From assembly GCA_016841445.1 (NCBI GenBank), contig JAENZD010000001.1, forward strand, positions 992,001 to 1,056,000: 64,000 nucleotides of DNA, read 5' to 3'. Below, one piece after another: positions 2,816 to 9,507 of the stretch (within the stretch, counting starts at the first letter, position 1; each line of letters opens with the position of its first letter). The notes beneath the pieces were generated by a model that worked only from the letters and a program-made list of their open reading frames with translations, did no database searches and was not told where the DNA came from. Source of the DNA: Anaerolineaceae bacterium (GTDB lineage: Bacteria; Chloroflexota; Anaerolineae; Anaerolineales; Anaerolineaceae). Made by a program: the position numbers and the translations under genes.

Positions 2816-3589
2816 TTGAAGGAAAAAATGTCTACAAAGGTTGACAAGCTGGATGTTGATGTTTATGAAACACGTGAAGAAATGGGAAAGGCTGCTGCTC
2901 GGGATGCTGAGCGGCGGATCAACCATTTTATTACCGAATACGGTGAGGCGACAATCGTTTTTGCAGCAGCGCCATCACAAAACGACATGCTCGCAGCGCT
3001 TAAAGAAACCAATGTTGATTGGACAAAAGTCAGGGCGCTCCATATGGATGAGTATATGGGTCTCCCGGTAGACCATCCTGCTGGTTTCGGCAACTTTCTC
3101 AAGAGGGTTATCTTTGATGCACTGCCTTTCAAAGAAATACACTATCTTTACGACCAGAATTTAGAACCTGAAGAAATCTGCGACCGTTATTCAGAACTGC
3201 TAGAGGAATTTCCGCCAGATCTGATATTGTTAGGTGTTGGAGAAAATGGTCATTTAGCCTTTAATGATCCAGCTGTCGCTGATTTTAACGACCCATTGGC
3301 AGTCAAGATTGTGGAGCTTGATGAAGTTTGTCGAACCCAGCAAGTTAATGATGGTTGTTTTGCAGATCTGTCTGAGGTTCCTGAGAAAGCAATTACGATC
3401 ACATTGAGCGCGATCATGAATGCTAAAGAGACGATCTGCGTGGTTCCAGGAGAACTTAAAGCCCCAGCCATTGATAGAATGCTTAATGGTGGAATACAGA
3501 CCGAATGCCCTGCAAGCATATTAAGAACGCATGAGCGTTCGAGTCTGTATCTTGATGCAGATAGCGCAAAAATAGCTTTAAATCTTTAA
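2816..3589 (+). CDS. nagB: Glucosamine-6-phosphate deaminase family protein
   Basis: NagB-type enzymes convert glucosamine 6-phosphate to fructose 6-phosphate and ammonia in the cytosol. The 257-residue product has the family signatures ALHMDEYMGLP (catalytic Asp region) and LLGVGENGHLAFNDP (active-site His), then TECPASILRTH near the end. The start chosen is the TTG at 2816 because AAGGAG at 2804-2809 lies six bases upstream; the ATG at 2828 would put it 18 bases away. The gene sits between transketolase and a mannonate-type SDR, with no nagA or amino-sugar transporter in view, so the true substrate may be another amino sugar phosphate or a keto sugar phosphate. A six-pair hairpin with a T run follows immediately. 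Confidence 0.82.
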   Translation: MKEKMSTKVDKLDVDVYETREEMGKAAARDAERRINHFITEYGEATIVFAAAPSQNDMLAALKETNVDWTKVRALHMDEYMGLPVDHPAGFGNFLKRVIFDALPFKEIHYLYDQNLEPEEICDRYSELLEEFPPDLILLGVGENGHLAFNDPAVADFNDPLAVKIVELDEVCRTQQVNDGCFADLSEVPEKAITITLSAIMNAKETICVVPGELKAPAIDRMLNGGIQTECPASILRTHERSSLYLDADSAKIALNL

Positions 3590-3590
3590 C

Positions 3591-3612
3591 ATCAGCAAAC
3601 GCTGATTTTTTA
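3591..3612 (+). terminator. Short intrinsic terminator or attenuator after nagB-like gene
   Basis: ATCAGC at 3591-3596 pairs with GCTGAT at 3601-3606 across a four-base loop and is followed by a run of T. The stem is only six pairs, so partial termination between the nagB-like gene and the downstream SDR is as likely as a complete stop. Confidence 0.5.
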
Positions 3613-3698
3613 AGAATTTATTTATAATAAAAGTATAAGAAATTGAGAACCAAGATTATTTATCTTGAGAAATCAATAATTACGCTAAGGAGAGATTG

Positions 3699-4511
3699 AT
3701 GGCTCAATTCGATATCAGCGGGAAAGTAGCGGTTATTACTGGAGGGGCGGGGGTATTATGCAGTACGATGGCTGAAAAACTTGCAGAAGTAGGGGTAAAA
3801 GTTGCCATATTGGATATTGCCCAGGACAAGGCGGAAGATGTCGCTGAAAAGATTAAATTAAATGGGGGAGAAGCCATTGGCGTCGGTGTAGATGTCCTTA
3901 ACAAGGAGAGCTTAACTAAAGCCAGAGATAGTGTGATCAAGAAATTTGGACGTATTGATATCCTGATCAATGGTGCTGGTGGAAATAAAGCTGCAGCAAC
4001 AACCAGTCCGGATTTATCTTTTTTTGATCTTCCTCAAGAAGCGATGAAATGGGTTTTTGATCTAAATTTAATGGGTACAATTCTTCCAACCCAAGTTTTT
4101 GGAAAGGTTCTGTCAGAACAGAAAAGTGGAACAGTTATCAATATTTCATCTATGGCAGCTTTTATTCCATTAACCAATACAATTGCGTACAGTGCGGCAA
4201 AAGCTGCAATTACTAACTTTACACAATGGATGAGTGTCTATTTTTGTTTAGAAAACTCACCCTCAATCCGGGTGAATGCAATTGCACCAGGATTCCTTCT
4301 TACACAACAAAATAAATATTTGTTAGAAGACGAATCTGGAAATGCAACCAAACGTGGTCAGAGGATCATCGATCAGACACCAATGCGAAGATACGGGAAA
4401 CCCGATGAACTGGTCGGGGCGGTTATCTTCTTGTGTTCTGATGCGGCCAGTTTTATTACCGGGGTAGTACTGCCAATTGACGGTGGATTTAATGCCTACT
4501 CCGGGGTGTGA
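3699..4511 (+). CDS. SDR-family D-mannonate oxidoreductase-like enzyme
   Basis: This classical short-chain dehydrogenase (270 aa) probably interconverts a keto sugar acid and its alcohol with NAD(P)H, for example D-fructuronate and D-mannonate. The cofactor motif is TGGAGVLCS near residue 15, followed by an Asp-ending strand (AILD) that suggests NAD preference. NGAGGNKAAATT, the Ser in NISSMAAF, and YSAAK complete the catalytic set. NGAGGN and the later GFLLTQQNKYLL are typical of the SDR type of mannonate oxidoreductase. The ATG at 3699 is preferred over the overlapping TTG at 3696 because AAGGAG sits about seven bases upstream. The 2-keto-3-deoxygluconate kinase later in the cluster agrees with a hexuronate or related pathway, but no mannonate dehydratase is visible. 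Confidence 0.78.
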   Translation: MAQFDISGKVAVITGGAGVLCSTMAEKLAEVGVKVAILDIAQDKAEDVAEKIKLNGGEAIGVGVDVLNKESLTKARDSVIKKFGRIDILINGAGGNKAAATTSPDLSFFDLPQEAMKWVFDLNLMGTILPTQVFGKVLSEQKSGTVINISSMAAFIPLTNTIAYSAAKAAITNFTQWMSVYFCLENSPSIRVNAIAPGFLLTQQNKYLLEDESGNATKRGQRIIDQTPMRRYGKPDELVGAVIFLCSDAASFITGVVLPIDGGFNAYSGV

Positions 4512-4658: not shown

Positions 4659-5729
4659 ATGCGCAAATTGCGAGTTTTGATCATGGGGGCCGCTTTTTCA
4701 GCTGATTTACACATTGATGCTTATTTAAGATTGAAAGATCGAGTTGAAATTGTTGGTATTGTTGATAGAGCAGCAGATCGGATTGAGACATTAGCAACGC
4801 GATATGGATTAACCGATTTTAAATCTTACAGTGATATTGATGAGGCAATTGCTGATGCAGATTGTGACCTTGTGGATGTATGCATGCCTAATTTTCTCCA
4901 TCATAAGGTTACCGTTGCTGCTTTAAAAAAAGGGCGCGATGTGATTGTCGAAAAGCCATTCGCAACAACAGTCGCTGATGGGAGAGAAATGGTTGAGACA
5001 GCTCAACGTTTAGGAAAGCACATTTATTATGCTGAGGATTGGTTGGGTTGCCCAGCCTTGAGAAAAGCACTTGAGCTTGTAGAAAGCGGTGCAATTGGTG
5101 AATTGAAGTTTGTCCGTGCGCGCGAGTGCCACAGCGGTTCCCACAGTCCCTTTGCACAAACCATTGAATACTGCGGTGGGGGATCGATGATCCATCTTGG
5201 CATTCATCCCGTTGGTTTCATGCTGGCGATGAAAAATAATCGGTGGACTGAGTTGGTCGCCATGACATCCGGCGGTGGTGAAAGTAACCTCGTGCATAAA
5301 GGCATGGAAGGTGAAGATTGGGCTGGTGCATTGATGCGGTTTGAGGATGGAACAACAGCTGTGCTTGAAGCTAATTACGTTAGCGCTGGTGGCATGGAAG
5401 ATGTGATCGCGTTTTATGGTACCCAAGGTTGTTTGCATGTTGATTTGACATTCTCAAGCCCGATTAAAGCATTCAGCATTCCAGGTTTTGATTATACAGT
5501 CGAAAAAGCAGAAATTACAACGGGCTGGTCGAATCCTGCTGTTGATGAAAAGTTCAATCTTGGCTATGTTTCTGAGATCACGCACTTCGTTGATTGTGCA
5601 TTGAAGGGTGTGGATGCGAATGTTGGTTTGCGGGGTGTTGATGGATTAGAAGCTTTGGAAGTTGTCAATTTAATTTATCAATCAGCAAAAGAAGGGGTAG
5701 CAATTAAGAATAAGAAGTTAGGAGCATAA
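4659..5729 (+). CDS. Gfo/Idh/MocA family NAD(P)-dependent oxidoreductase
   Basis: The 356-residue product has an N-terminal Rossmann fold (LIMGAAFSADLHIDAY, with an Asp at the end of the second strand, IVDRAADR) and the family motif VEKPFATT at about residue 95-102. A C-terminal substrate domain follows, with GGGSMIHLGIHPVGF, whose His is a likely catalytic residue. Such enzymes oxidise or reduce cyclic polyols and sugars, commonly myo-inositol, glucose or galactose derivatives. AAGGAG lies seven bases before the ATG. It ends four bases before the next gene, so translation of the two is probably linked. The substrate cannot be assigned; partnership with the flavoprotein downstream suggests both act on the same compound or exchange reducing equivalents. 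Confidence 0.82.
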   Translation: MRKLRVLIMGAAFSADLHIDAYLRLKDRVEIVGIVDRAADRIETLATRYGLTDFKSYSDIDEAIADADCDLVDVCMPNFLHHKVTVAALKKGRDVIVEKPFATTVADGREMVETAQRLGKHIYYAEDWLGCPALRKALELVESGAIGELKFVRARECHSGSHSPFAQTIEYCGGGSMIHLGIHPVGFMLAMKNNRWTELVAMTSGGGESNLVHKGMEGEDWAGALMRFEDGTTAVLEANYVSAGGMEDVIAFYGTQGCLHVDLTFSSPIKAFSIPGFDYTVEKAEITTGWSNPAVDEKFNLGYVSEITHFVDCALKGVDANVGLRGVDGLEALEVVNLIYQSAKEGVAIKNKKLGA

Positions 5730-5733
5730 AGAG

Positions 5734-8334
5734 ATGTCAGAAGATATCCGAATTCCAGTAAAACTTGGTAATGTAACATTTAAGAATCCGTTTTATGTAG
5801 CTTCTGGACCCACTGCAAAATCTGTCAGTCAGTTACTTCGTATAGAAGAGACAGGCTGGGCGGCAGCAATCATGAAACTTTCGATTGATCCAGTGCCGTA
5901 TATCAACAAGCGACCGCGCTATGGGCTTTTCCCACAACATCAAGCCCTTGCATTCACTGCAGAACGGCGGCTAACAATGGCTGAGGGATTAAAAGTTATC
6001 GAGGAAGCCAAACCGAAACTGCATGACCTTCTCGTAATTCCCAATATCACCTATGCTGGTGATGACGATGTTGCGGGTTGGGTCAGGATGGCAAAGCGGT
6101 TTGAAGATGCGGGCGCTGATGCCATTGAGCTTAATATGTGCTGCCCGAATATGTCTTACAATCTGCAGGTGACCAGCGGGGGCAAAGCAAAACTCACCAA
6201 GGAAACAGGGGCAAGCATGGGGCAGCACCCGAACCTGGCAGCAGCAATCATCGCAGGTATCAAAGAAGCAATTAGCATCCCCTTGATTGCCAAATTAACC
6301 CCTGAACGCGGAAATATCGCTCAGCTTGCGACTACTGCTACACAGGCAGGCGCAGACGCGGTCAGTTCAAATGGTAACCGTTTGGGTATTCCCCCGATTA
6401 ATATTGAAGATCCAGAAAAGGCTTGCTACCATCTCCAGGAAGAAATCAGCATGAGCTGCTACGCTAGCAAGTGGCTAAAACCCCTGGCACAGCGGGATGT
6501 ATATGAGATCCGTAAAGTAAACGGCCCAGATATTTTCATTCTGGCAAATGGCGGTATCACCAATTGGCGCGATGCGGTCGAAATGATCATGGCTGGTGGC
6601 AGTCTGATTGGTGTTTGTTCTGAGACATTGATCAGTGGTTTTGATATTGTCAGGCCGATGATCAAAGGCTTGAAGGATTATATGGATGCCCATGGATATG
6701 AGAGTCTGGATGGATTCAGGAGCCAAATTGTCTCAGAGGTTAAAACAGCTACCGAATTAACATTATATGGCGGGTACGCTCGAATTAAAGAGCCAAATCT
6801 TTCTGCACCATGTAAAATTGCTTGCCCACATCAAGTTCCAGTTCAGGCATACGTTCAAAAGGTAGCAAAAGGCGAGTACCGAGATGCTTTCGACTTGATC
6901 ACAGGAAAAAACCCCTTACAGAACATTTGTGGGTTGGTCTGCAACCATCAATGTGAAGATGTCTGTACACGTGGTCAGCAAGGACGACCTATTCAGATCA
7001 GAGACATTAAACGCTTTGTCCTGGAATATGGACGAGCTCAGGGATGGGACGAAAAGGGAAAGAATTCTGACCGAACTGGACACACGGTGGCGGTTGTGGG
7101 TTCTGGACCTGCAGGCTTAACCTGTGCTGCGACATTAAATAAGGCAGGATATGAAGTCACAATCTTTGAGAAGGAACAAGAAACCGGTGGAATGATGCGG
7201 TACGGTATTCCAGCTTTCCGGATTTCCCGCCAGCGACTCGATGAAGAGATTTCTCGGATCCTCGAGAAAGGTATCACGCTGGAAACTGGAAAAGCGCTGG
7301 GGAAAGACTTCACAATTGAAAGCCTGAAGAAGGACGGTTACGAGAGTGTTTTCATCGGTATCGGTGCACAGACAAGCGAAGCCTTTGGCGTTCCTGGAGA
7401 AAATGCAGACGGTGTCGTTACGGCACAAAAGCTATTAATTGAGGTAAGTGATAGTGGAAAATCTAGTATTGGCAAGGCCGTGGTTGTATGCGGTGATACG
7501 TATGCCGCCTCAGATTCAGCGAGAACTGCTTTGAGATTAGGTGCGGAAAAAGTTGTCCTGGCATACACATCAGTGCCAGAGGCAAAATCCGCATTATTTG
7601 AAACTTACCAGGATGCTAAAGCTGAAGGTGCTCAACTCCTTGACGGTGTAGAACTGAAGAAAATTCACGATAGCAATGGTCATGTGACAGGTGTTGAGCT
7701 GGTGAATGCCATTGGTGTTTCGCTAAATGTGGATTGTGATATGGTAATACTGGCTGGCAAGATGAATGCCGAGACAGAAGGACTTGATGGAATAACCTCA
7801 GATGGCCATATTTCAGTTGACAGAAAGACTGGAATGACATCAAAAGCAGGTGTTTTTGCTGGTGGGGATGCAACACGCCAGGGCACCATCATTTCCGCGA
7901 TTGCAGCAGGTGAGAAAGCAGCCGTTTCCATTGACCACTACATAATGAAAGAAAATGCGACGCTGGAATATGATCCCAGGCTTGTCAGGGTCGATACAGA
8001 ATCTGTCTTGCAGCGAGCCGGATATTTGAAAGAGACGCTGAAACCAGCGGAAACCGTTACAGCTTCTCCTGGAGACCGGGTTAAGAATTTTGAGACTTAT
8101 GAAAGAGTATTGACAGAGGAAGAAGCTGTTGCAGAGGCACAAAGGTGCTTGAACTGCGGATGTGGTGAGGGCTGCCAGCTTTGCAAGACGATCTGCTGTG
8201 AATTTGCTGTAGATATTGTTTCTCCGGACGTCCTCGAAATCAATGAAGAATTGTGTGTCGCCTGCGGTATGTGTTACTTGCGGTGCCCAACAAAGAACAT
8301 TGAAATGGTCAACACAGGCTTGATCGCAGATTAA
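5734..8334 (+). CDS. Fused dihydroorotate/dihydropyrimidine dehydrogenase-like and GltD-like Fe-S flavoprotein
   Basis: This 866-residue protein has four parts. Residues 1-330 form a dihydroorotate dehydrogenase-like FMN barrel (NPFYVASGPT, ELNMCCPNMSYN with adjacent Cys, AKLTPE, LANGGITNWRDAV). Residues 345-440 are a cysteine-rich Fer4_20 region (CKIACPHQVPVQAY, CGLVCNHQCEDVC). Residues 445-765 form a GltD-like FAD/NAD(P) unit (VAVVGSGPAGLTCA, FAGGDATRQGT), whose second dinucleotide motif is unusual (VVVCGDTYAASDSAR). The end has ferredoxin-like cysteines (CLNCGCGEGCQLC, CVACGMCYLRCP). Mammalian dihydropyrimidine dehydrogenase has the same modules with the FMN barrel after the GltD part, so the order here is permuted. 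Pyrimidine reduction is possible, but the sugar-acid neighbours argue for another substrate. It is probably cytoplasmic. Confidence 0.8.
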   Translation: MSEDIRIPVKLGNVTFKNPFYVASGPTAKSVSQLLRIEETGWAAAIMKLSIDPVPYINKRPRYGLFPQHQALAFTAERRLTMAEGLKVIEEAKPKLHDLLVIPNITYAGDDDVAGWVRMAKRFEDAGADAIELNMCCPNMSYNLQVTSGGKAKLTKETGASMGQHPNLAAAIIAGIKEAISIPLIAKLTPERGNIAQLATTATQAGADAVSSNGNRLGIPPINIEDPEKACYHLQEEISMSCYASKWLKPLAQRDVYEIRKVNGPDIFILANGGITNWRDAVEMIMAGGSLIGVCSETLISGFDIVRPMIKGLKDYMDAHGYESLDGFRSQIVSEVKTATELTLYGGYARIKEPNLSAPCKIACPHQVPVQAYVQKVAKGEYRDAFDLITGKNPLQNICGLVCNHQCEDVCTRGQQGRPIQIRDIKRFVLEYGRAQGWDEKGKNSDRTGHTVAVVGSGPAGLTCAATLNKAGYEVTIFEKEQETGGMMRYGIPAFRISRQRLDEEISRILEKGITLETGKALGKDFTIESLKKDGYESVFIGIGAQTSEAFGVPGENADGVVTAQKLLIEVSDSGKSSIGKAVVVCGDTYAASDSARTALRLGAEKVVLAYTSVPEAKSALFETYQDAKAEGAQLLDGVELKKIHDSNGHVTGVELVNAIGVSLNVDCDMVILAGKMNAETEGLDGITSDGHISVDRKTGMTSKAGVFAGGDATRQGTIISAIAAGEKAAVSIDHYIMKENATLEYDPRLVRVDTESVLQRAGYLKETLKPAETVTASPGDRVKNFETYERVLTEEEAVAEAQRCLNCGCGEGCQLCKTICCEFAVDIVSPDVLEINEELCVACGMCYLRCPTKNIEMVNTGLIAD

Positions 8335-8481: not shown

Positions 8482-9507
8482 ATGAAAGTCATCACATTTG
8501 GTGAAATCATGCTGCGTCTCAAATCGCCAGGGCAAACACGTCTTTTTCAGACACCTGAGTTAGAAGCAACATTTGGCGGAGGTGAAGGAAATGTTGCAAT
8601 ATCCCTAGCTAATTACGGGATGGATGCAGGCTTTATTACTGTATTGCCAGGTAACAAAATAGGTGATGCATGCCTGCAGGAAATTCGCAAATATGGGGTA
8701 GATGTCAACAAGGTAACGCGTGGTCCTGGGCGTATGGGTATCTATTTTCTGGAAGGTGGCGCAAACCAACTGCCAAGCAATGTCATCTATGACCGTTCTG
8801 ATTCTGCCATAGCGCTCGCAAAACCAGGTGACATCGATTGGGATGAAGGATTCACCGATGCAGGCTGGTTTCACATCACAGGGATCACCCCTGCAATTTC
8901 TGAAAATACAATGAGACTTTCGATGGAAGCTGTTAAAGCTGCAAAAAAGCACCATTTGACTGTTTCCTGCGATTTGAATTATCGCAAAAAATTATGGAAA
9001 TACGGCAAGTCTGCCCCGGAGGTCATGAAAGAACTGATCAAGTTTGTAGACGTTATGATTGCTAACGAGGAAGATTGCCAGAAATCCTTGGGGATTTCTG
9101 CGGATGTGGATGTGGAGAGCGGCGAGCTGGATACTAACAAGTATGAAGCATTGTCAAACGCTGTCCTTAAGGTATATGAAAACATCAAAATGATTGCAAT
9201 CACATTACGTGAGAGCATCAGCGCAGATCACAATAATTGGGCTGCTTGTTTAAACACCCGTGAGAAATTCTACTTGAGTCGTAAGTACGCTATCACTGAC
9301 ATCGTTGATAGGGTTGGCGGTGGAGATTCTTTTGCGGGTGGGTTGATTTATGGTCTAAATCATTATGATGATGAAAAAGATGCTCTTGAGTTTGCAGTGG
9401 CGGCATCCTGCCTTAAACACTCAATTAATGGTGATTTTAACCGGGTGAGTTTGGATGAGGTTGAGAAACTCATGGGTGGTGATGCTTCCGGGCGGGTTCA
9501 GCGCTAA
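8482..9507 (+). CDS. kdgK: 2-keto-3-deoxygluconate kinase (PfkB family)
   Basis: The 341-residue product is a ribokinase-family sugar kinase. It begins with [14 protein letters not shown], has the [15 protein letters not shown] substrate-binding stretch near residue 34, and carries the PfkB C-terminal signature [15 protein letters not shown] with the catalytic Asp around residue 280. KdgK phosphorylates 2-keto-3-deoxygluconate with ATP before aldol cleavage to pyruvate and glyceraldehyde 3-phosphate. The start follows AAAGGA with suitable spacing. As last gene of the cluster, just before a strong terminator, it suggests that upstream enzymes deliver a hexonate or hexuronate-derived keto acid. 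No KDPG aldolase is in view. Other PfkB substrates such as fructose cannot be excluded. Confidence 0.8.

Follow-up and report, generated by a model that had tools for sequence, protein, structure and literature searches.

How does a flavoenzyme built from the modules of dihydropyrimidine dehydrogenase (DPD) obtain its electrons, and on what does it act, when its gene lies in a cluster of the sugar-acid type? The question is raised by a 64,000-nucleotide stretch from an Anaerolineaceae bacterium (contig JAENZD010000001.1, positions 992,001 to 1,056,000; the whole stretch is hereafter called the window), which encodes a fusion protein, here named DPDL. In this protein a flavin mononucleotide (FMN) barrel is followed by a Fer4_20 domain, a unit for flavin adenine dinucleotide (FAD) and nicotinamide adenine dinucleotide (phosphate) (NAD(P)), and a C-terminal iron–sulfur (Fe-S) domain. 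Its FMN barrel and its Fe-S modules have remained intact, the clade of the window protein lost the NAD(P)H motifs once while its Fe-S cysteines stayed in place, and the gene stands in a conserved cluster; the interest of DPDL lies in this loss together with this cluster, the order of its modules being ordinary. We propose, at about the midpoint of our confidence, that DPDL is a ferredoxin-fed FMN reductase of an unsaturated, carbohydrate-derived ring compound other than uracil, which works in one pathway with a Gfo/Idh dehydrogenase and whose FAD/NAD(P) module is largely vestigial; its electron donor, direction and substrate are what we infer.

Loss of the NAD(P)H motifs in one clade

A pattern-based scan of a genome collection confirmed 149 relatives of DPDL, in Bacillota, Planctomycetota, Verrucomicrobiota, Bacteroidota, Chloroflexota, Spirochaetota and other phyla; the homologue, neighbour and tree counts given here rest on the best 80 loci of the 149, with identities of 43-63%. 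The alignment (A1) comprises 77 distinct rows, the window protein and 76 distinct homologues, all aligned over their full length. Four short or truncated loci (L048, L051, L067 and L089) were left out, and two loci identical in sequence (L009 and L010) were counted once.

The family consensus across the NAD(P)H-binding subdomain is IGGGFTAVDAARTA.RLGA...YRRT.DEMPA, to which the motifs of the solved relatives 9bov, 9n5u, 8oh5, 5jca and 4ylf, with NAD(P) motifs intact, are close. The window protein reads VCGDTYAASDSARTALRLGA...YTSVPEAKS over the same stretch, with GDTYAAS at the dinucleotide motif. A preliminary description of the stretch, made from the sequence alone, had remarked on the abnormal form of this second dinucleotide motif; the remark is confirmed, and the abnormality proves to be a derived loss across a clade, common to 30 rows (29 distinct, which constitute the clade of the window) and absent from 48. 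The motif RR[TS]xx[EQ]MP occurs in 0/29 clade members vs 46/48 others, and the GGG-type dinucleotide motif in 3/29 vs 46/48, while a plain GxGxxAx[D/E] is found in 18/29 vs 46/48. The NAD(P) segment is also shorter in the clade (median of 111 vs 134 residues). The second FAD motif is failing, since D712 is kept in 4 of the 29, the window protein among them, vs 46/48 of the others; the first is almost complete, with G456 and G461 in 29/29 and G458 and E479 each in 28/29. Against PRK12771, an NAD(P)-binding subfamily model with a cut-off of 516 bits, the window protein scores 417.7 bits, a non-clade homologue (L016) 501.1 and a further clade member (L084) 163.9.

The extent of the erosion is apparent from module identities in pairs of sequences matched at 65-75% barrel identity (165 clade pairs and 187 others). 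The NAD(P) subdomain shows 23.7% identity in the clade vs 57.4% in the others, FAD-binding part b 30.6% vs 51.2%, part a 40.5% vs 57.2%, the linker 26.4% vs 37.3%, Fer4_20 60.9% vs 68.2% and the C-terminal Fe-S domain 68.3% vs 62.4%. Loosening thus affects the entire FAD/NAD(P) module and is strongest in its NAD(P) part; the C-terminal Fe-S domain has been spared. The sixteen cysteines of the Fe-S type are all present in 29/29 clade members and 47/48 others, and judging from their domain families they presumably bind Fe-S clusters. Because the reading frame is uninterrupted and RR[TS]xx[EQ]MP is missing from 28 further distinct clade members as well, the idea of a pseudogene or a sequencing error at CGDTYAASDSAR was rejected. 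The loss is not genome-wide either, because a 754-residue relative of the second half of DPDL in the same genome (L091) keeps GGGNTALD and YRRTEHEMPA.

A first tree, built from the full protein, was open to the charge of circularity; it was rebuilt without the NAD(P) domain, and the result was unchanged. This tree, of 77 rows, draws on the barrel and Fer4_20 only; it supports the clade at 100/100, and every one of 200 bootstrap trees (100%) explains the motif loss by a single change. With a midpoint root, which was used for drawing only, the clade is nested within a 47-row group (100/100) together with 18 mostly clostridial canonical rows. Besides this root, the solved relatives outside the family also have intact motifs, and the intact state is therefore taken as ancestral. 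DPDL can be regarded as a natural experiment in the change of electron donor within a multi-cofactor flavoenzyme, in which the motifs eroded once on the tree and the Fe-S chain was kept.

Partial erosion was also observed outside the clade. The two non-clade rows of the 48 that miss the motifs, L043 and L053 (10001-12601) from Ruminiclostridium cellobioparum, had been labelled canonical and carry VAGNDFTALD and ECTRDEIP; in them the same loss may have begun independently. A 788-residue homologue outside the tree (L048) has the eroded motif TGKGENAFD and could be a clade member or a second loss.

Module layout and substrate pocket

The reading frame begins with ATG and contains no internal stop, and frame 1 of the reverse strand is full of stops. 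Pfam matches, all above curated cut-offs, run in the order DHO_dh (residues 9-317), Fer4_20 (358-437), Pyr_redox_2 (451-726) and Fer4 (835-856); the Fer4_20 domain lacks its front, as its match begins only at position 30 of the 113-position profile. These are the modules, in the order, that the preliminary description had named. Its further point, that the order is permuted, is right with respect to DPD, as pig DPD aligns in opposite order (residues 357-746 of the query with 84-517 of DPD, and 6-331 with 532-852), but wrong if taken as a novelty, since the 76 distinct full-length homologues and Escherichia coli YgfK have the same order. The features of DPDL and its neighbours are collected in Table 1.

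Table 1. Coordinates in the window of DPDL, its parts and the neighbouring genes
Feature	Position	Strand	Remarks
866-residue fusion protein (DPDL)	5734..8334	+	FMN barrel, Fer4_20, FAD/NAD(P) unit, C-terminal Fe-S domain
DHOD/DPD-type FMN barrel, residues 5-335	5746..6738	+	DHO_dh 79.9 bits; structure alignment to DPD
NMCCPN, residues 134-139	6133..6150	+	Cys137 at the position of DPD Cys671, Cys136 at that of Ser670
Fer4_20, residues 357-437	6802..7044	+	six invariant Cys: 360, 364, 399, 403, 407, 411
FAD-binding part a, residues 449-550	7078..7383	+	GSGPAG...FEKE...GGMMRYG
Eroded NAD(P)H-binding subdomain, residues 575-690	7456..7803	+	from sequence comparison with homologues
CGDTYAASDSAR, residues 586-597	7489..7524	+	family consensus at the same place: IGGGFTAVDAAR
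FAD-binding part b, residues 691-740	7804..7953	+	GGDAT retained in the window
C-terminal Fe-S domain, residues 789-860	8098..8313	+	ten conserved Cys: 805, 808, 810, 814, 817, 821, 841, 844, 847, 851
Transketolase-like protein, 783 residues	383..2734	+	weak family scores; Transketolase_N 54.8 bits
NagB-like (Glucosamine_iso) protein	2816..3589	+	reaches no NCBIfam cut-off
SDR, D-mannonate oxidoreductase type	3696..4511	+	PRK08277 381.9 bits, cut-off 281
Gfo/Idh/MocA dehydrogenase	4659..5729	+	4 bp upstream of DPDL; most constant partner of the family
PfkB kinase, most like KDG kinases	8482..9507	+	reaches no NCBIfam cut-off

An AlphaFold2 model of DPDL, computed from a 78-row alignment, has a mean predicted local distance difference test score of 90.2. 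The model was compared by VIA-align, which re-examined the match list of Foldseek rather than making a full structure search. The barrel (model residues 3-343) matched DPD chain 8f6n_D with a Z-score of 37.2 and a root-mean-square deviation of 2.2 over 314 aligned residues, and the second half (351-856) matched the NfnABC/StnABC chain 9bov_A with a Z-score of 40.2 and a deviation of 2.5 over 456 residues. A few DPD entries, such as 1gth_C, align with the barrel as well as with the Fe-S part at the C-terminus (model residues 1-860, 383 aligned).

The chains of the NfnABC/StnABC bifurcating transhydrogenases (9bov_A, 8oh5_C and 9n5u_A/9n5v_A) are the best fold match for the second half of DPDL; however, this match omits the barrel, and their NAD(P) motifs are intact. 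With mammalian DPD and bacterial PreT/PreA, DPDL shares the module types, the position of the catalytic cysteine and the fold of the FMN barrel, and it differs from them in its shifted order, replaced uracil contacts, lost NAD(P)H motifs and other neighbours. E. coli YgfK (TIGR03315, 1032 residues) likewise holds a flavin module, Fer4_20, FAD/NAD(P) and C-terminal Fe-S parts in one chain, and a profile alignment matches window residues 356-854 with 456-951 of YgfK. No FMN module was called in a Pfam scan of YgfK, and the placement of its barrel rests on published modelling, in which an FMN site was modelled in the N-terminal part (PMC12507026). The N-terminal halves of the two proteins align by hhalign with a probability of 2.2 over 49 columns, and DPDL scores 231.9 bits against the TIGR03315 model, below its cut-off of 835.3. 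Unlike the DPDL clade, YgfK keeps GAGNTAMD and YRRSLQEMPA.

Within the barrel, alignment with pig DPD places Cys137 at Cys671 and Cys136 at Ser670, so that the catalytic cysteine is in its expected position. The adjacent cysteines of NMCCPN, which had been singled out in the preliminary description, are indeed present; they are a feature of the whole family, and the second of them occupies the usual DPD position. NMCCPN is invariant in 77/77 rows, an invariance that is partly built in, as the peptide patterns of the search included LNMCCPNM. Ten residues outside the search patterns, E77, R79, N104, Y107, S141, N143, E191, N215, R216 and C242, are likewise identical in 77/77 rows, in the clade and in the others. 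Asn609, Asn736 and Thr737 of DPD, which we take to be the uracil-contact residues, correspond to A73, G214 and N215 in the window protein and are kept in 0/77 rows. The position of Asn609 is filled by A, C, T, S, V, G or Y and that of Asn736 by G, A or S, and Thr737 and Val738 are replaced by N215 and R216 in every row. The replaced contacts and the family-wide invariant residues together point to a shared class of substrate: judged from the aligned pocket, it is probably common to the clade and the other members, is probably not uracil, and may bear an acid group and hydroxyls. The nearest solved barrel is that of pig DPD (91.5 bits), and the PreA model PRK08318 gives 192.9 bits, short of its cut-off of 335. 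The earlier suggestion of a new substrate is accordingly supported insofar as the pocket has changed and the sugar-type neighbours are conserved, which argue for a compound other than uracil; that the substrate is new is still something we infer.

A conserved gene neighbourhood

In the window, the genes for the transketolase-like, NagB-like, SDR and Gfo/Idh proteins, DPDL and the KDG-type kinase follow one another on the plus strand. Neighbours at the other loci were searched for with up to six members per cluster and the window proteins as queries, and counted at E 1e-12 and 45% coverage; the cluster names derive from Pfam scans of one or two members, and absences are weak because many loci are cut short. 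The counts refer to 30 clade loci (the window excluded, L051 and L089 included) and 49 others (L067 included), with L048 set aside. A Gfo/Idh gene lies directly upstream of DPDL at 30/30 clade loci, NagB-like and creatininase-family genes each occur at 27/30, and these are joined by Ldh2 (20), SDR (19), malic enzyme (15), a LIV-type binding protein (11), a KDG-type kinase (8) and KDPG aldolase (7). The 49 non-clade loci have Gfo/Idh in 35 cases, directly adjacent in 28, along with SDR (15), D-2-hydroxyacid dehydrogenase (14), KDPG aldolase (7), creatininase, KDG-type kinase and FGGY kinase (6 each), NagB-like (4), Ldh2 (3) and LIV (0). The transketolase-like protein, used as a query, matched none of the other DPDL loci. 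No published account of this gene cluster was found in the open-access literature.

The cluster is well represented in the cultured Thermoclostridium caenicola DSM 19027 (L084), where LacI, LivJHM, two ABC ATPases, NagB-like and creatininase genes are followed by Gfo/Idh, DPDL, SDR, Ldh2, KDPG aldolase and a KDG-type kinase. A close relative of the window locus (L010, 5257-7006) carries two tandem creatininase-family genes. The creatininase-family neighbours were also considered as IolN (3-dehydro-scyllo-inosose hydrolase) and rejected as such, as they score 73.4 and 81.8 bits against a cut-off of 245. Four planctomycetal and lentisphaeral loci (L060, L061, L063 and L076) have an ornithine-carbamoyltransferase-like gene upstream of DPDL, and in L061 this is followed by amidohydrolase-2-type genes.

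The preliminary description, which called the neighbours carbohydrate enzymes and not pyrimidine genes, would have been contradicted by homologues standing consistently beside hydantoinase or pyrimidine genes. This was not the case in a tblastn search of the 80 loci with E. coli uricolytic proteins (E 1e-5), in which relatives of SsnA, YgeX, YgeY and XdhD were found at 0/80 loci, of HyuA at one (L039, 24% identity) and of YgeW at two (L061 and L063, 23%); YgfK-like second halves besides DPDL occur at four of the 80. The neighbours of DPDL thus differ from those of YgfK (SsnA, HyuA, YgeW/X/Y and XdhD). The description needs qualification in one respect, as some non-clade loci hold families that also serve nitrogen-ring pathways. 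At the level of genomes, a D-hydantoinase model exceeds its cut-off in 8/30, namely in 8/18 clade genomes (those of L010, L036, L039, L040, L047, L051, L089 and the window) and 0/12 others, with weaker matches in 27/30; in the window genome it lies on contig C6 and DPDL on C3.

A co-directional run of genes leads into the cluster in the genome of the window (L090, 132-12361, ending at window position 361) and comprises xanthine-dehydrogenase-type (three subunits), Cyclase-family (PF04199), HMGL-like, LIV-type transporter and TIM-barrel genes, the permeases and ATPases being named by eye. This transporter may import an N-heterocyclic compound or one that a molybdenum enzyme handles. Our guess, by analogy, is that the Cyclase-family gene might replace creatininase in this genome; such a stand-in is thinkable because a member of the family is reported to perform a C–C ring hydrolysis in phloroglucinol degradation (PMC10470551).

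Electron donor, substrate and competing readings

In the proposed mechanism, the ferredoxin-like Fe-S domains would receive electrons, with reduced ferredoxin the most likely donor, and hand them on to FMN, and the FAD/NAD(P) module would now serve mainly as a scaffold. A ring-opening hydrolase, of the creatininase family in the clade, would pull the reaction forward, and the opened acid would be processed by Ldh2/SDR enzymes, the KDG-type kinase and KDPG aldolase. Published systems offer precedents for parts of this scheme. YgfK is the yanthine reductase of a reductive uric acid pathway, uses NAD(P)H together with the ring-opening SsnA, and is proposed to be pulled forward by this ring opening (PMC12507026). 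PydAc is reported to have neither an FAD nor an NADPH domain and to work with reduced ferredoxin or methyl viologen, and the same study counts 29 PydA sequences that carry Pyr_redox_2 in the same polypeptide (PMC7332683); UacX lacks the FAD domain, ferredoxin is suggested by the authors, and the assay employs reduced methyl viologen (PMC12507026). PydAc and UacX, whose substrates are uracil and yanthine, resemble the DPDL clade in combining an FMN barrel and Fe-S with no NAD(P)H site, and differ from it in that the FAD/NAD(P) domains or the FAD domain are absent, whereas DPDL keeps the whole module in an eroded state. The DPDL clade stands between YgfK and PydAc/UacX: the module is present and the nucleotide motifs are gone.

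Several points weigh against a ferredoxin-fed reductase in a purely carbohydrate pathway. The 18/29 clade members with GxGxxAx[D/E] could possibly bind NADH in a weak or altered manner, and FAD may still be working, given the nearly intact first FAD motif. No ferredoxin gene was seen among the annotated genes, although no dedicated search was made. A terminator-like site (3591-3606, plus strand) separates the NagB-like and SDR genes and, together with intergenic gaps of up to 147 bp, makes a single transcript for the cluster uncertain; the promoter and terminator scan itself gave no excess over shuffles (11 terminator-like sites vs 9.1 expected by chance). No creatininase match was found in the window genome, where the ring-opening partner differs, and a relative of XdhD (27%) lies in the run upstream of the cluster. 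Finally, the non-clade loci include amidohydrolase-3 (10/49), carbamoyltransferase (5/49) and class-III aminotransferase (5/49) genes; together these count against a purely sugar-based reading, since uric acid degradation employs members of the first two families, UacY (amidohydrolase-3) and YgeW (of the carbamoyltransferase family) (PMC12507026).

These last observations lend themselves to a different substrate, which we consider possible though doubtful: a nitrogen-containing ring other than uracil, degraded by a uric-acid-like route in which the reductase is followed by a ring-opening amidohydrolase and by removal of carbamoyl or amino groups, with a sugar-acid-like skeleton left over. The enzymes would be the creatininase or amidohydrolase, carbamoyltransferase, NagB-like deaminase and aminotransferase, and the frequency of creatininase-family, NagB-like and LIV-type genes in the clade, the three non-clade families, the uric acid precedents and the XdhD-like gene are all consistent with such a route. 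However, the near absence of the uricolytic proteins themselves from the 80 loci and the constancy of sugar-type dehydrogenases as partners tell against it.

It is unlikely, in our judgement, that NADH, as opposed to NADPH, can still feed the FAD/NAD(P) module by way of a remodelled site, which would leave DPDL a pyridine-nucleotide-dependent reductase. GDTYAAS in the window, the loss of RR[TS]xx[EQ]MP in 29/29, the shortened segment, the loss of D712 in 25/29 and the low identity of the NAD(P) subdomain all oppose such a site; the retained GxGxxAx[D/E] of the 18 members and the first FAD motif agree with it, as do the strands and helices of the subdomain, which are predicted with high confidence in the model.

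The opposite direction of reaction seems distinctly improbable. DHOD-type barrels are able to run as dehydrogenases, and FMN might accordingly oxidise a cyclic keto-polyol made by Gfo/Idh to an enolised 1,3-diketone, which the creatininase-family hydrolase would cleave, the electrons leaving by the Fe-S chain to ferredoxin or FAD. The partial match of the creatininase-family neighbours to IolN fits this chemistry, but falls short of membership, and the closest solved barrel, DPD, reduces its substrate, as do YgfK and PydAc. That DPDL is a dihydropyrimidine dehydrogenase for uracil or thymine, placed near sugar genes by chance, is scarcely credible, for the PreA match, which together with the DPD match suggests it, stays below its cut-off, the uracil contacts are changed and the gene cluster is conserved across phyla; from the pocket residues and the neighbours, uracil catabolism was judged unlikely.

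The ferredoxin-fed reductase can be extended to the source of a 2-keto-3-deoxy acid. A dehydratase survey of eight genomes covered UxuA, UxaA-type, IlvD/Edd and MR_MLE_C. UxuA was found in 2, UxaA-type in 3 and IlvD/Edd in 4, and MR_MLE_C matches occur in 8/8, above the cut-off in 6, some of them weak and in enolase-sized frames. The window genome (98.85% complete) gave no dehydratase match for UxuA, UxaA-type (PF04295) or IlvD/Edd (PF00920). Its single MR_MLE_C match is weak, at 36.7 bits, and the 431-residue frame that holds it is taken to be enolase; the genomes of L010 and L036, whose completeness is unstated, have the same pattern. The window genome nevertheless has the KDG-type kinase of the cluster, below its curated cut-off, and a KDPG aldolase elsewhere, and this combination is counted as support for a reductive origin of the deoxy carbon. 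It could thus be imagined, though as a whole the idea is rather unlikely to hold, that an undescribed anaerobic carbohydrate pathway gains its deoxy carbon by ferredoxin-driven reduction of a cyclic enone and not by a dehydratase, and that the clade is a surviving intermediate between NAD(P)H and ferredoxin which has kept the eroded FAD/NAD(P) body.

Because DPDL matches the models of dihydropyrimidine dehydrogenase and of glutamate synthase subunits, members of the family are probably prone to wrong annotation under these names. The window genome has one full-length copy, and no match at E 1e-100 was found in plasmid records. Among relatives of the same class DPDL is rare, in 2/396 genomes at E 1e-150 (that of the window included) and 2/41 at E 1e-100, and this rarity suggests horizontal transfer. 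The conserved cluster, which the cultured T. caenicola also carries, would mark a compound, probably a ring, that serves anaerobes with gut and sediment samples named in their record titles.

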